A DNA stretch of 64,000 nucleotides from the NCBI RefSeq assembly GCF_006874625.1, contig NZ_CP030034.1:3224001-3288000 (forward strand). The letters run 5' to 3'. The number at the start of each line of letters is the position of its first letter. Position 1 is the stretch's first letter. The translations under genes and the position numbers were made by a program. Of the stretch, positions 56,030 to 63,235 are shown piece after piece. The notes beneath the pieces are model-generated. The model was not told where the DNA came from. It was given only the letters and a program-made list of their open reading frames with translations, and did no database searches. This stretch comes from Bdellovibrio sp. NC01 (GTDB taxonomy: Bacteria > Bdellovibrionota > Bdellovibrionia > Bdellovibrionales > Bdellovibrionaceae).

Positions 56030-57724
56030 ATGTTGCTAGAGCTTAAAGTTTCTAATTTCGCAATTATCGAAAACCTGCACATCACTTTCAAAGATGGCTT
56101 GAACATTCTTTCTGGTGAAACGGGTGCCGGTAAATCTGTGCTTTTAAAAAGCTTGTCGTTATTGATGGGCGGAAAAGGTTCTTCCGATACAATTCGTACG
56201 GGAGCTTCTGTCGCAACAATCGAAGGCTCTTTCGATCTTAGCAAACGTCCCGACGTTTTAGCTGCGTTGAAAGACATGGGCATTGAAGTCGATGAAGATC
56301 TTTTGATCGTTCGCCGTGTCCTAAGCGCCGGTGATAAATCTAAAATCTATTTGAACGGTTCATTAAGCACGGTTGGTGGTTTGCGTGACGTTGTGGCTCC
56401 CCTGGTGGAACTTGCGGGTCATTCGGCACCATTGATTGAAATGACAGGCCAACATGAAAACCGCAACTTGATGTCGAAAGCTTATCACATGGATTTGCTC
56501 GACCAGTATGCGGGCACCTGGGATAAGCGTTTGCTTTTCACTGAAAAGTACAACCGCTACCACGCGATCTTTGAAGAGATCAAAAAGTTGGAAAGCGATG
56601 CCAAACAAAAAGCGCAACGTCTTGATTTCTTGATCTATCAACGTGACGAAATCACGGCGTTGGATTTGTCACCGGGCGAAGATCACGAATTAGAAGTTGA
56701 AGTAAAGAAATTGAAGAACTCTTCACGCATTGGTTCTTTCGTAGACCAAGCGGAAGCAGCGCTTTACACAGACGACGATTCAGCAATCAGCCGTTTAAAC
56801 GCGATTTTGAAAAAAGGTATGGAGCTTTCAAACCTTGATCCACAAATCGCAGCCAAACTTGAAAACCTGGAACAAGCAAAAACGCTGATTGATGAAAGCA
56901 TCTATGAACTTCGTCAATACGCTTCGAAGATCGACGCCGATCCACAACGTCTTGAAGAAATGGAAAGCCGTTTAAGCGATTTGCGTAAGCTGCAAAAGAA
57001 ATACGGCACAAGCGTTGATGATATCTTGAAAGCTTTGATGGAGATGGAAATTGAAATCTCTAACTTACAAAATTCAGATGTTAAAATCGACTCTTTGAAA
57101 AAAGAATCGGCTGTTCTTTTGAAAGAGCTTGAAACATTGGGTGCAGACCTTCACAAACGTCGCTTGAAAGGTGCCGATCTTTTGGCTGACAGTGTGAATG
57201 CAGAATTGGCCGAATTGAATATGAAAGGTGTGACGTTCCACGTACACATCGAAAAAATGACAGCGCTTGCTCCTACGGGCATGAGCGATGTCGAATTCTT
57301 GTCACAAACTTCTGCGAAAGACATGAAACGACCACTTGCGAAGTTTGCTTCCGGTGGTGAATTGTCTCGTATCTTATTGTCATTGAAACGTGTTGTCGGT
57401 TCGAGCAACCAACCGCGCACTTATTTGTTCGACGAAGTTGATACGGGCGTTTCGGGTGAAACGGCTGAAAAAGTAGGTCGTAAATTGAAGACGATTGCTA
57501 AAGGACAGCAAGTTATTTGCGTGACTCACCTTCCGCAAGTAGCTGCCTTCGGTGATATCCACTTCTTTATCCAAAAATCTCCGCAGAAAGATTCTGTGGC
57601 GATGCTTGTGTCAGAACTCAAACAAAAAGATCGTATTCAAGAGATTGCTCGTCTTATCAGTGGCGAGAAAATTTCAAAAACATCGCTTGCTCACGCTGAA
57701 CAGCTCTTGGTGGAAGCGAAGTAG
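56030..57724 (+). CDS. recN: DNA repair protein RecN
   Basis: A 564-residue SMC-like ATPase. Walker A GETGAGKSVLLKSL near residues 28-41, a long coiled coil in the middle, and C-terminal signature FASGGELSRILL and Walker B TYLFDEVDTGVSG. It acts in double-strand break repair with RecA, fitting with AddAB in the same window. GGAG 7 bases upstream gives the start, two bases after nadK. Confidence 0.94.
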   Translation: MLLELKVSNFAIIENLHITFKDGLNILSGETGAGKSVLLKSLSLLMGGKGSSDTIRTGASVATIEGSFDLSKRPDVLAALKDMGIEVDEDLLIVRRVLSAGDKSKIYLNGSLSTVGGLRDVVAPLVELAGHSAPLIEMTGQHENRNLMSKAYHMDLLDQYAGTWDKRLLFTEKYNRYHAIFEEIKKLESDAKQKAQRLDFLIYQRDEITALDLSPGEDHELEVEVKKLKNSSRIGSFVDQAEAALYTDDDSAISRLNAILKKGMELSNLDPQIAAKLENLEQAKTLIDESIYELRQYASKIDADPQRLEEMESRLSDLRKLQKKYGTSVDDILKALMEMEIEISNLQNSDVKIDSLKKESAVLLKELETLGADLHKRRLKGADLLADSVNAELAELNMKGVTFHVHIEKMTALAPTGMSDVEFLSQTSAKDMKRPLAKFASGGELSRILLSLKRVVGSSNQPRTYLFDEVDTGVSGETAEKVGRKLKTIAKGQQVICVTHLPQVAAFGDIHFFIQKSPQKDSVAMLVSELKQKDRIQEIARLISGEKISKTSLAHAEQLLVEAK

Positions 57725-57757
57725 TCGCAGTCTAGTCTTTTAAATAATTGTAAGTCG

Positions 57758-57809
57758 AAGCCTCCTTATTTTGACCTTAAGCTAAGGTTATGAATAAGGA
57801 GGCTTTTTT
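57758..57809 (+). terminator. recN terminator that also contains the next gene's ribosome-binding site
   Basis: AAGCCTCCTTATT (57758-57770) pairs perfectly with AATAAGGAGGCTT (57793-57805), with an inner ACCTTA/TAAGGT hairpin (57774-57788), then six Ts. AAGGAGG (57796-57802) is the ribosome-binding site for ATG 57810 and is in the 3' arm. Confidence 0.88.
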
Positions 57810-58748
57810 ATGATCTTCGTCATGGGAGCAACTGGGCATATTGGTTCAAAGATCGTGACTCATCTTTTGGCGAATGGACAAGAGGTTCGCTGTCTTGCCC
57901 GTCATTTCCCCGATAAAGATGCATATGAAGGTGCAGAGCTGATCGAAGGCGACGCCAACAGCGTGGCCACGGTCACAGATTGCATGAGGCATTGTACGGC
58001 CGCATTCACGATGATCCCTCCTAACATGAAGGCGCACGAGATGCGTTTTTCCCAAAACAAAATCGGTGAAGTCATCGGCGAAGCTATTGAAGAGTCTGGC
58101 ATTCGCAAAGTCGTCAACTTAAGTTCATACGGGGCCGATTTAAACGCTGGCACCGGTCCCATCCTGGCGTTGCATGATCAAGAACTGCGTTTGAATGAAC
58201 TCGATGCTGATATCGTTCATCTTCGTCCCGTTTCGTTCATGGAAAACTTATTGGCGGGAATTCCTGCGATGGTTTCAATGAATCGCTATTATGGAATTCC
58301 TTCAGGTGAAACACCGATTGATCTGATTGCGACTCGTGATATTGCAGCGCGGGCGGCGTTCTTACTTATCAATCCAACGTTCAAAGGTCACACAGTTGAA
58401 TACCTATTAGGCGAGCGCACTTTGACCTACAACGAAGTGATTCGCGCGTTGGGAGAAGCCGTTGAAAAGCCTGATATGGAATATATGGAAGCCCCCGAAC
58501 AAGAAATTTATAATTATCTTGTCGGCGCCGGCATGAGTGAAGATGTTGCCAACAATTTAGTAGAATTAGATCGCGCGATTGCCAATGGAACTATTCACGC
58601 GACAGTCACACGCGATAAGTTAAATACAACGGCGACTTCGATTGAAGACTTCGCTCGTACAACATTTAAGAACGCCTATCAGGCTGCGATGGAAAAAGAT
58701 CGTATGCATCGTACAATCTCTTATCCACCTGATGAAGCGCGTATGTAG
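57810..58748 (+). CDS. NmrA-family NAD(P)-binding protein
   Basis: A 312-residue cytosolic atypical SDR. The Rossmann motif GATGHIGSK is at residues 6-14, LARHFPDKDAYEGAELIEGD follows, and VNLSSYGAD with LHDQELRLNEL is typical of NmrA-like quinone or isoflavone-type reductases. It has no classical Tyr-x3-Lys catalytic pair, so it may be an NADP sensor or reductase. Its ribosome-binding site is sequestered in the recN terminator. A TTGACC (57771-57776) and a poor ATAAGG (57794-57799) spaced 17 bases could form a promoter that bypasses the hairpin. Confidence 0.82.
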   Translation: MIFVMGATGHIGSKIVTHLLANGQEVRCLARHFPDKDAYEGAELIEGDANSVATVTDCMRHCTAAFTMIPPNMKAHEMRFSQNKIGEVIGEAIEESGIRKVVNLSSYGADLNAGTGPILALHDQELRLNELDADIVHLRPVSFMENLLAGIPAMVSMNRYYGIPSGETPIDLIATRDIAARAAFLLINPTFKGHTVEYLLGERTLTYNEVIRALGEAVEKPDMEYMEAPEQEIYNYLVGAGMSEDVANNLVELDRAIANGTIHATVTRDKLNTTATSIEDFARTTFKNAYQAAMEKDRMHRTISYPPDEARM

Positions 58749-59747
58749 CTATCTGATTTTAAAAACTTTCAAGAGCATTGCTAGGCTTGGGAAGATAAGT
58801 ACACTTCCCACTAGCAATGCGATCGTTAATTGTGTCAAGGTCGCAGCCGGTGCCGCAGCTTGATAGAACGTGATCGCGCCTTGTTTTGTGATCACCGCAT
58901 TCGGTGCTTCCGCAACATACCAGCCTAACAGAATCAAACTTGCTTGGGCAGCGGCGATGATTCTTACGATCAATGATTTACTTCTTCTAACAAAGTACCA
59001 CAACGCAAAGAATGCCGCCGTGGCCATTCCCAGAATTGCCAAAGCAAACGGATTCGTTAAGAAGTTCAAAAAGAAGCTGGCATTTTCAAGCCAGGAAGCG
59101 AAGAACACCAAACCACCGGTTGCGATGACCGCGATGTTGAAGTAATAACCGCGCTTCCAGAATAGTTTCTTTAACTCCGGATCTTTGGTTTCACCCACCA
59201 AATACACACTGGCTAGAAAACCAAATATACTGACGGTGAAAAATCCCATCATCAACGGCAACCAGCCCCACCAGCTATGGATATACGCTTCGACGAAATC
59301 ACGTGTTTCCATATTAATAGTGCCGCGACCCAGGCTGCCCGCAATGATTCCGATCCACATCGCACTCCAAAGACTGGAAATACCGAAGAGGCGCGAATAA
59401 ATCTTCTGCGATTTTTCGTCATGAATGGCATCGTAATGACGAAATGTAAAAGCGGTTCCGCGCACGACAATTCCCACAAGCAGTGCGACGACTGGTAAAT
59501 GCAGATAAGTCATGATGGTATTAAAGATTGTGGGAAATGCCATGAACAGAATCACGATCACTAAGATCAGCCACATGTGGTTCGCTTCCCACACGGGACC
59601 CATAGCATGATTTATCACTCGACGTTGTTCGTCTTTAAATTTCCCACTGGGCAACAGCTCAAGTATCCCCGCACCGTAATCGGCACCACCTAGGACGACA
59701 TAAAGCAATAATGAGGCTGCGATAAAGAACAGAAGAATTTCAATCAT
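58749..59747 (-). CDS. cydB: Cytochrome bd-type quinol oxidase subunit II
   Basis: A 332-residue membrane subunit with about nine helices, starting MIEILLFFIAASLLLYVVLGGADYGAGILELL, the CydB N-terminal signature (GADYGAG). It is required for assembly of the bd/CIO oxidase with CydA. The start overlaps the cydA stop (ATGA). No cydX-like small gene is evident after it; the convergent NmrA-like gene ends at the next base. Confidence 0.93.
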   Translation of the reverse strand: MIEILLFFIAASLLLYVVLGGADYGAGILELLPSGKFKDEQRRVINHAMGPVWEANHMWLILVIVILFMAFPTIFNTIMTYLHLPVVALLVGIVVRGTAFTFRHYDAIHDEKSQKIYSRLFGISSLWSAMWIGIIAGSLGRGTINMETRDFVEAYIHSWWGWLPLMMGFFTVSIFGFLASVYLVGETKDPELKKLFWKRGYYFNIAVIATGGLVFFASWLENASFFLNFLTNPFALAILGMATAAFFALWYFVRRSKSLIVRIIAAAQASLILLGWYVAEAPNAVITKQGAITFYQAAAPAATLTQLTIALLVGSVLIFPSLAMLLKVFKIR

Positions 59748-61147: not shown

Positions 61148-63235
61148 ATGAACAAATTTCTTCTGATTCCACTGTGTTTTCTAGGAGTTTCCTGCATGCA
61201 CCAATTTCCACAAGACCATCCTCATCCTGACAAGAATCCACACCGGTTAGAGAAACACGGCGACGTTCGTCAAGACGATTACTACTGGCTGAAAGAGCGC
61301 GAAAATCCAAAGGTCATCTCATATCTGAAAGCTGAAAACGATTACACCGATCGTGTTATGGCACCCGTCAAAGATTTAGAAGCGAAACTGTTCACAGAAT
61401 TAAAGTCACGAGTCAAAGAGGATGAGTCTTCAGTTCCCGTGCGCAGCCATGGGTACTATTACTATGGCCGTTACGAAGTGGGCCAACAGTATCCCCTGTA
61501 TGCACGTAAAAAAGGTTCTTTAGAAGCCGCAGAAGAAATGCTTTTAAATGTGCCAGAGCTTGCAAAAGGTCACAGCTTCTATCAAAGCACGGGTCCGATG
61601 ATGAGTCCGAATCAGAACATCATGGCTTATGCCGTGGATACTGTCGGTCGCCGCTTTTTCACTCTGTATTTCAAAGATTTGAAGACAGGAAAAATGCTTC
61701 CCGACAAAATTGAAGATATCAGTCCAAACTTGGTATGGGCTGCCGATAATGAAACGGTATTCTATACACAACAACATCCAGAAACTTTGCGAACGGAAAA
61801 AGTATTTCGCTATAGTTTAAAAACGCACAAATCTGAAGAAGTGTATTTTGAAAAGGACGAAACTTATTCAGTTCACGTCTATAAATCATTGTCAGAAAAA
61901 TTCATCTATATTGCTTCGTACAGTACTTTGACAACGGAGGTGCAGTACCTCGCAACTGACAAACCCTTTGATAAATTCAAAGTCTTCTCTAAGCGCAAAC
62001 GTGGTCACGAATATTCGGTCAGCGATGGTGACAATGCCTTTTACATCGTCACAAACAGCAATGCCAAAAATTTCCGTTTAATGACGACAGATCTTGCACA
62101 CACTGACAGTAAATACTGGAAAGAAGTGATACCTCATCGTGACGATACCTATCTGCAAGATGTGACCGTCTTTAAAAAATATTTGATCCTGGATGAACGC
62201 AAGAATGGACTGACGCAAATCCATGTGACCGATCGCCATGGCAATAATTCTTATTATATCCCATTTGCCGATCAAAGCTTCATGGCTGGCGTCGGTGATA
62301 ATCGCGAATACGATAGCGAGACGCTACGTTTCGAGTATGAATCAATGCGTTTACCACCGTCGGTATTTGATATTAATTTGGTCACTCATAAACAAGAGCT
62401 TAAAAAAACGCACGAAGTTCCGAACTATAATCCCGAGCACTATCGTACCGAGCGAATCTTCATCACAGCTCGCGACGGTGTGAAAGTTCCGGTGTCGCTC
62501 ATCATGCGCAAAGACTTTCATAAAGACGGTACCGCACCCCTGTTGATTTATGGTTATGGTTCTTATGGCGCGAACATGGACCCATGGTTTAGCTCAGATG
62601 TCTTCAGCCTTGTAGATCGCGGTTTTGTTTTTGCTCGCGCGCATATTCGTGGCGGTTCTGAAATGGGTCGTGACTGGTACGACACTGGCAGAACCTTACA
62701 TAAGAAAAACACGTTCTTTGATTTTATCGACACAACGGATGCGCTGGTGAAAGAACGTTATGCGAATCCCAAAAAGCTTTATGCCATGGGTGGCAGTGCA
62801 GGCGGTTTGTTGATGGGTGCGGTTATGAATCTTCGTCCCGATCTTTATCATGGCGTGGTCGCACAAGTGCCCTTCGTTGATGTCATCACAACGATGCTTG
62901 ACGACTCTATTCCGCTGACAACGGGTGAATACGATGAATGGGGTAATCCGAATGAAAAGATGTATTACGATTACATCAAAACGTATTCGCCTTACGATAA
63001 CGTGGTCGATGCAAAATATCCGAATGTGCTAGTGACGACGGGCTTACACGATTCCCAAGTGCAATACTGGGAGCCCGCGAAATGGGTACCGAAGTTACGT
63101 GAACACAATAAGGGCAACAGCGTGATTCTGCTAAAAACCGATATGGATGCAGGACATGGTGGAGCTTCGGGACGCTTTGATCAGTTAAAAGAAACCGCAA
63201 CCGAATATGCTTTCATCTTGATGCTTGAGAAATAA
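61148..63235 (+). CDS. S9A-family oligopeptidase (oligopeptidase B type), lipoprotein
   Basis: A 695-residue serine peptidase. MNKFLLIPLCFLGVSC is a lipoprotein signal with lipobox GVSC, so it is membrane-anchored, whereas most oligopeptidases B are cytosolic. An N-terminal beta-propeller (residues about 60-400) precedes the hydrolase domain: GGSAGGLLMG (catalytic Ser near 545), Asp in TGLHDSQVQYWEP and His in DAGHGGASGRF. The enzyme cuts short peptides, often after basic residues. It may degrade peptides at the envelope. Confidence 0.88.
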   Translation: MNKFLLIPLCFLGVSCMHQFPQDHPHPDKNPHRLEKHGDVRQDDYYWLKERENPKVISYLKAENDYTDRVMAPVKDLEAKLFTELKSRVKEDESSVPVRSHGYYYYGRYEVGQQYPLYARKKGSLEAAEEMLLNVPELAKGHSFYQSTGPMMSPNQNIMAYAVDTVGRRFFTLYFKDLKTGKMLPDKIEDISPNLVWAADNETVFYTQQHPETLRTEKVFRYSLKTHKSEEVYFEKDETYSVHVYKSLSEKFIYIASYSTLTTEVQYLATDKPFDKFKVFSKRKRGHEYSVSDGDNAFYIVTNSNAKNFRLMTTDLAHTDSKYWKEVIPHRDDTYLQDVTVFKKYLILDERKNGLTQIHVTDRHGNNSYYIPFADQSFMAGVGDNREYDSETLRFEYESMRLPPSVFDINLVTHKQELKKTHEVPNYNPEHYRTERIFITARDGVKVPVSLIMRKDFHKDGTAPLLIYGYGSYGANMDPWFSSDVFSLVDRGFVFARAHIRGGSEMGRDWYDTGRTLHKKNTFFDFIDTTDALVKERYANPKKLYAMGGSAGGLLMGAVMNLRPDLYHGVVAQVPFVDVITTMLDDSIPLTTGEYDEWGNPNEKMYYDYIKTYSPYDNVVDAKYPNVLVTTGLHDSQVQYWEPAKWVPKLREHNKGNSVILLKTDMDAGHGGASGRFDQLKETATEYAFILMLEK

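Follow-up and report, generated by a model that had tools for sequence, protein, structure and literature searches.

A terminator-like hairpin enclosing the Shine-Dalgarno sequence of an NmrA-family gene downstream of recN in Bdellovibrio, with a putative promoter in its loop

In Bdellovibrio sp. NC01, recN is separated from the NmrA-family gene that follows it by a junction of 85 bp, and one hairpin within this junction has the anatomy of an intrinsic terminator and encloses the Shine-Dalgarno sequence (SD) of the downstream gene. The hairpin is conserved in the genus, and its arms carry compensatory changes. By calculation, the stem would lock the SD in RNA that reads through from recN and would release it in RNA initiated inside the hairpin. 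We postulate that the terminator, the SD lock, a promoter in the loop, and a regulator site together form a compact, nested junction that insulates the two genes, and we consider this reading, taken as a whole, to be reasonably probable.

Anatomy and conservation of the junction hairpin

The window analyzed here is a 64,000-nucleotide stretch of the 3.98-Mb NC01 genome. It contains recN, which encodes a DNA repair ATPase (56030..57724, plus strand; Pfam SMC_N, 2.3e-13), and a gene for a 312-amino-acid NmrA-family NAD(P)-binding protein (57810..58748, plus strand; PF05368, 1.2e-16), referred to below as nmrA; all of the junction features described below are likewise on the plus strand. At its other end, nmrA meets cydB, which lies on the opposite strand, tail to tail (58746-58751), with zero bases between the two stop codons (TAG/CTA).

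The imperfect hairpin (57757-57806) consists of 23 pairs, one bulge, and a 3-nt apical loop, AGC (57780-57782). Its 5' arm, AAGCCTCCTTATT (57758..57770), contains the anti-SD CCTCCTT, and its 3' arm, AATAAGGAGGCTT (57793..57805), contains the whole of AAGGAGG, the SD of nmrA (57796..57802); an inner stem, ACCTTA/TAAGGT, extends the two arms. The run TTTTTT (57804..57809) is at once the terminator U-tract and part of the SD-to-ATG spacer, which measures 7 nt (ATG at 57810). A preliminary description of this DNA had placed AAGGAGG in the 3' arm of the recN terminator stem and the U-run directly before the nmrA start codon, and both can be read in the sequence.

The hairpin folds at -29.0 kcal/mol, compared with a mean of -9.8 kcal/mol for shuffled sequences (z, -7.6), and none of 200 shuffles was as stable. 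This stem, which begins approximately 33 bp past the recN stop codon and is followed by TTTTTT, has the anatomy of an intrinsic terminator, and from that anatomy it appears that the recN transcript ends in it. A consensus terminator scan did not list the junction terminator, probably because the inner stem is bulged.

Across a 464-kb genome sample (20 stretches plus the window) containing 150 SD-led starts, there was no overall enrichment of SDs paired within a 3' arm (68 cases seen, 65 expected from shuffles). This result is what would be expected under the main rival to our reading, namely, ordinary packing, in which, in a small genome, a plain recN terminator happens to abut a gene start and a G-rich SD shares bases with the stem for economy, with no selection for a lock or for internal initiation. 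The finding that terminators and SDs overlap in many short intergenic regions of the genus is also consistent with packing. In the same 150 starts, SD-locking folds of -20 kcal/mol or lower with a T-run before the start were seen twice versus 0.0 expected, and the hairpin in the window was the most stable SD-locking hairpin of all.

Our comparison set comprised 24 genomes of the genus, with 21 orthologous loci and three members that lack nmrA; scans of genome contigs and viral contigs for related loci found no Bdellovibrio orthologues beyond these 21, and the viral match was unrelated. In all 21 loci, nmrA directly follows recN and its start is conserved, and the intergenic region measures 62 to 92 bp in most of them. 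One member without nmrA (L105, in genome G014) has a small, separate terminator-like hairpin after recN and then a gene resembling the prolyl-oligopeptidase-type gene found at 61148 in the window; this gene order suggests a gain or loss of nmrA and cydAB together as one block.

Of the 21 orthologues, 15 keep a hairpin whose 3' arm contains the SD, and about 13 also keep the T-run. Outside the SD, stem position -3 is occupied in these 15 loci by GC (eight loci), AT (four), TA, CG, or TG (one each), and stem position -1 is occupied by TA (11 loci), TG, GC, AT, or CG (one each). Because both arms change together, it is the pairing, not the sequence, that is conserved. The earlier view that the recN terminator and the SD-hiding hairpin are one structure is thus borne out in the genus. 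The same data bear on an alternative hypothesis, in which the inverted repeat serves at the DNA level as an operator bound by a repressor of nmrA and is not an RNA device. A long inverted repeat that adjoins a start codon would suit such a role, but arms that covary with pairing kept are unlike a sequence-specific operator, and the conserved DNA-type motif of this junction, TTGTAAGT (described below), sits outside the hairpin. We regard the operator hypothesis as highly improbable.

The loci that depart from the common pattern speak to packing in both directions. In L004 to L006, which we take to be the HD100 group, recN is followed by a separate terminator of its own, and the SD is largely free of the lock, a loss that packing would explain. 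A separate recN terminator is also present in L016 to L018, where the SD of L016 is still closed and the lock is partly lost in the others. It follows from these two sets of loci that nesting is not essential. Against packing, L019 has no U-run at all and yet retains a strong SD-locking stem.

A candidate promoter in the loop and calculated SD accessibility

The hexamer TANNAT is present in 20 of the 21 orthologues, compared with 2.7 expected by shuffling, although the orthologues are related by descent and represent one lineage, so that this count does not amount to 20 independent events. It lies 17 to 37 nt upstream of the ATG, mostly at 23 to 27 nt, and falls within the apical loop wherever the hairpin exists. 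The middle two bases are variable (CC, GC, CG, AA, GA, AC, TC) and the flanking T, A, A, and T are constant, which is the pattern of a -10 box. The sole exception is the window, in which alignment with the orthologues puts TAAGCT at the equivalent position (57778..57783), spanning the apical loop. TAAGCT is a weaker -10 match; at one locus of a different family (elbB-like, L265), the same hexamer stands 17 nt from a TTGCCA -35. We detected no good -35 at the nmrA promoter, either in the orthologues or in the window. Because its own -10 is weak, the promoter part of our reading is about an even bet for NC01 itself. The presence of TANNAT in every orthologue but that of the window, together with the recurrence of nesting at unrelated junctions (see below), is not readily explained by packing, and overall we consider packing unlikely.

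The preliminary description had also proposed an internal promoter producing RNA without the hairpin and had assigned its -35 to a TTGACC in the loop. The idea of such a promoter stands, by way of the loop TANNAT of the orthologues, but the element itself has to be given up. TTGACC actually occupies 57771-57776, on the 5' side of the stem; it is not conserved, and the sole -10 at 16 nt from it (AATAAG) is poor. Transcripts from this pair would start at approximately 57805, about 7 nt beyond the -10 and past the SD, and would therefore be without a ribosome site as well.

Upstream of the hairpin, the motif TTGTAAGT (57748..57755) is found in the window and, as TTGTAAG(T), at a conserved place in 15 orthologous loci with TANNAT, the box being 24 to 25 nt downstream in each. 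The motif was absent after recN in eight other family members and in the three members of the genus that lack nmrA, and we therefore assign it to nmrA. It would span approximately -36 to -43, immediately ahead of the -35 position, which is a usual place for an activator. We postulate that it is probably the site of an activator or regulator that helps a promoter without a good -35. L016 to L019 have, in place of this motif, a TGTG-N8-CACA-like palindrome (in L017, TGTGTAAATATACACA) that stands about as far from the TAGAAT box and is possibly the site of a different regulator.

Other interpretations of these elements were considered and set aside. Taken as a -35, TTGTAA would stand 24 to 25 nt from the -10, too long for sigma-70, and it was retained as a probable regulator site. 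Pairing of TTGTAAGT with UUUAUG, as an extra lock on the start codon, is possible in the fold of the window; a role in DNA is preferred because the motif is kept in L004 to L006, where this pairing is unavailable. A micro-ORF of seven codons (MNKEAFL, 57790-57813) runs from the predicted RNA start to an overlap with the nmrA ATG (ATGA), but it is not conserved and is likely due to chance. A search of the 464-kb sample for the promoter class GTAAGT-N22/23-TANNAT elsewhere returned three matches, none before a gene start. Published start sites for HD100 are from the attack phase only and mostly belong to FliA promoters (PMC3627812).

In equilibrium calculations, the probability that the SD is unpaired in read-through RNA was 0.000 in the window and ranged from 0.000 to 0.002 across all 15 loci with the hairpin. 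When the RNA began just after the -10, the calculated values were 0.39 in the window (start at approximately 57790) and 0.05 to 0.47 in the other hairpin-bearing loci; a value of 0.004 for L020 was disregarded, as an upstream TANNAT had been used in that calculation and the loop box there is TATCAT. These figures agree with the earlier suggestion that read-through RNA carries a locked SD. The preliminary description took the hairpin to be a structure that has to open, whereas the relatives point to a bypass by initiation inside the hairpin.

A third rival, the double control of the preliminary description, is regulated attenuation, in which opening of the hairpin by a protein, small RNA, or metabolite allows conditional coexpression of recN and nmrA. 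The architecture does resemble that of a terminator that also hides an SD. However, an Rfam search gave no match at the gathering score, and alignment of the orthologues showed no conserved extra fold, unpaired aptamer, or anti-terminator of the kind that would mark a riboswitch or a known cis-regulatory leader. The piece that is conserved and unpaired is the -10 box, and intergenic regions as short as those of most loci leave little room for anything more. We therefore consider attenuation improbable.

Similar nesting at other junctions and in known systems

A genus-wide search for the pattern GGAGG, T-run, and ATG placed the SD in a 3' arm at 45 of the 58 distinct sites read. Two further gene families, which we take from their sequences to be nitronate-monooxygenase-like and elbB-like, were followed across all 24 genomes. 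The nitronate-monooxygenase-like gene is preceded by TTGC[GC]T-16-TATTCT/TATCCT, with the -10 inside a hairpin that likewise combines terminator and SD, in 9 of the 24 genomes; most other genomes have upstream sequence resembling coding sequence that runs to the start. The elbB-like gene is preceded by TTGCC[AT]-17-TAGAGT/TAGAAT, with the -10 inside such a hairpin in 9 of the 24 genomes; a tenth locus, L265, folds less clearly. In most of the remaining genomes, which make up about half of the elbB loci, the -10 is located just upstream of the hairpin, so the logic of escape fails there. In all checked loci of both families, a co-directional gene ends 30 to 90 bp upstream, and a -35/-10 pair of this kind occurs in 4.9% of shuffled upstream regions.

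Two junctions of this kind are in the NC01 genome. Upstream of its elbB-like gene (L278; G000:C1:598786-599436) is TTGCCT-17-TAGAGT, with the -10 enclosed by a terminator-like hairpin; the 3' arm of this hairpin is the SD of that gene. At L214 (G000:C1:3078430-3078830), reading by eye identified TTGGCC-17-TATTTT, whose -10 falls in the loop of a hairpin that ends in GGGAGGGTTTTTATG. We speculate that nested junctions of this design form a recurrent class in Bdellovibrio. A single hairpin would act as terminator, SD lock, and carrier of the -10 in its loop; the design would have arisen separately at nmrA, at the nitronate-monooxygenase-like gene, at elbB, and perhaps at others, and would insulate neighboring genes in both transcription and translation. 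We rate the chances of this broader proposal as slightly below even.

Comparable control is known from phage T4, in which the late promoters of I-TevI, segB, soc, and e are placed such that transcripts from them are unable to fold into the hairpin hiding the ribosome-binding site (reviewed in PMC2988022). As in the I-TevI type, the ribosome-binding site of nmrA would be paired in RNA from upstream promoters (calculated probability of an unpaired SD, 0.000 in the window), and a promoter at the hairpin would give RNA too short to form it, a likeness that on the Bdellovibrio side depends on the putative loop box (TAAGCT in the window). Unlike the I-TevI type, the Bdellovibrio hairpin is also shaped like an intrinsic terminator of the preceding gene, and its putative -10 is in the apical loop. 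Whereas the T4 examples are phage late genes, the junction described here is chromosomal, conserved, and carried by a free-living predator. Our best reading is of a compact insulating junction that would work like I-TevI control, its blocking hairpin also serving as a terminator.

The transposase genes of IS10 and IS50 have fold-back protection, in which RNA entering from outside folds over the ribosome-binding site and internal RNA does not. Unlike those systems, the nmrA junction contains no mobile element, and termination and SD locking would share one stem. A GC-rich stem, a U-run, and an SD in the 3' arm are features in common with intrinsic (Rho-independent) terminators and with SD-hiding riboswitches or attenuators; unlike the latter, the nmrA junction has no aptamer or alternative fold, and the conserved feature of its loop is promoter-like. 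In the open-access literature, we found no precedent for promoters nested in terminators.

Proposed mechanism and its implications

We propose that the hairpin and its U-run act as the intrinsic terminator of recN. Any RNA that reads through would contain the whole hairpin with the nmrA SD base-paired, and according to the calculations, nmrA would hardly be translated from recN transcripts. Expression of the gene would instead depend on a promoter of its own, the -10 lying in the apical loop and the start at the beginning of the 3' arm, as the relatives indicate more strongly than the window does. RNA initiated internally would keep the SD and lose the 5' arm, and because the 5' arm is missing, it would be free to be translated. 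A regulator bound at TTGTAAGT probably helps this promoter. In this way, about 85 bp would suffice to insulate nmrA expression from that of recN at two levels.

If this proposal is correct, the same stretch of roughly 55 bp encodes terminator, translation lock, and promoter together, and only RNA started at the right place would be translatable. The junction could also provide a ready-made insulator part, and short gaps in Bdellovibrio genomes would be directly testable with 5'- and 3'-end maps. More broadly, it would show a way in which genomes with small intergenic regions keep neighboring genes independent.
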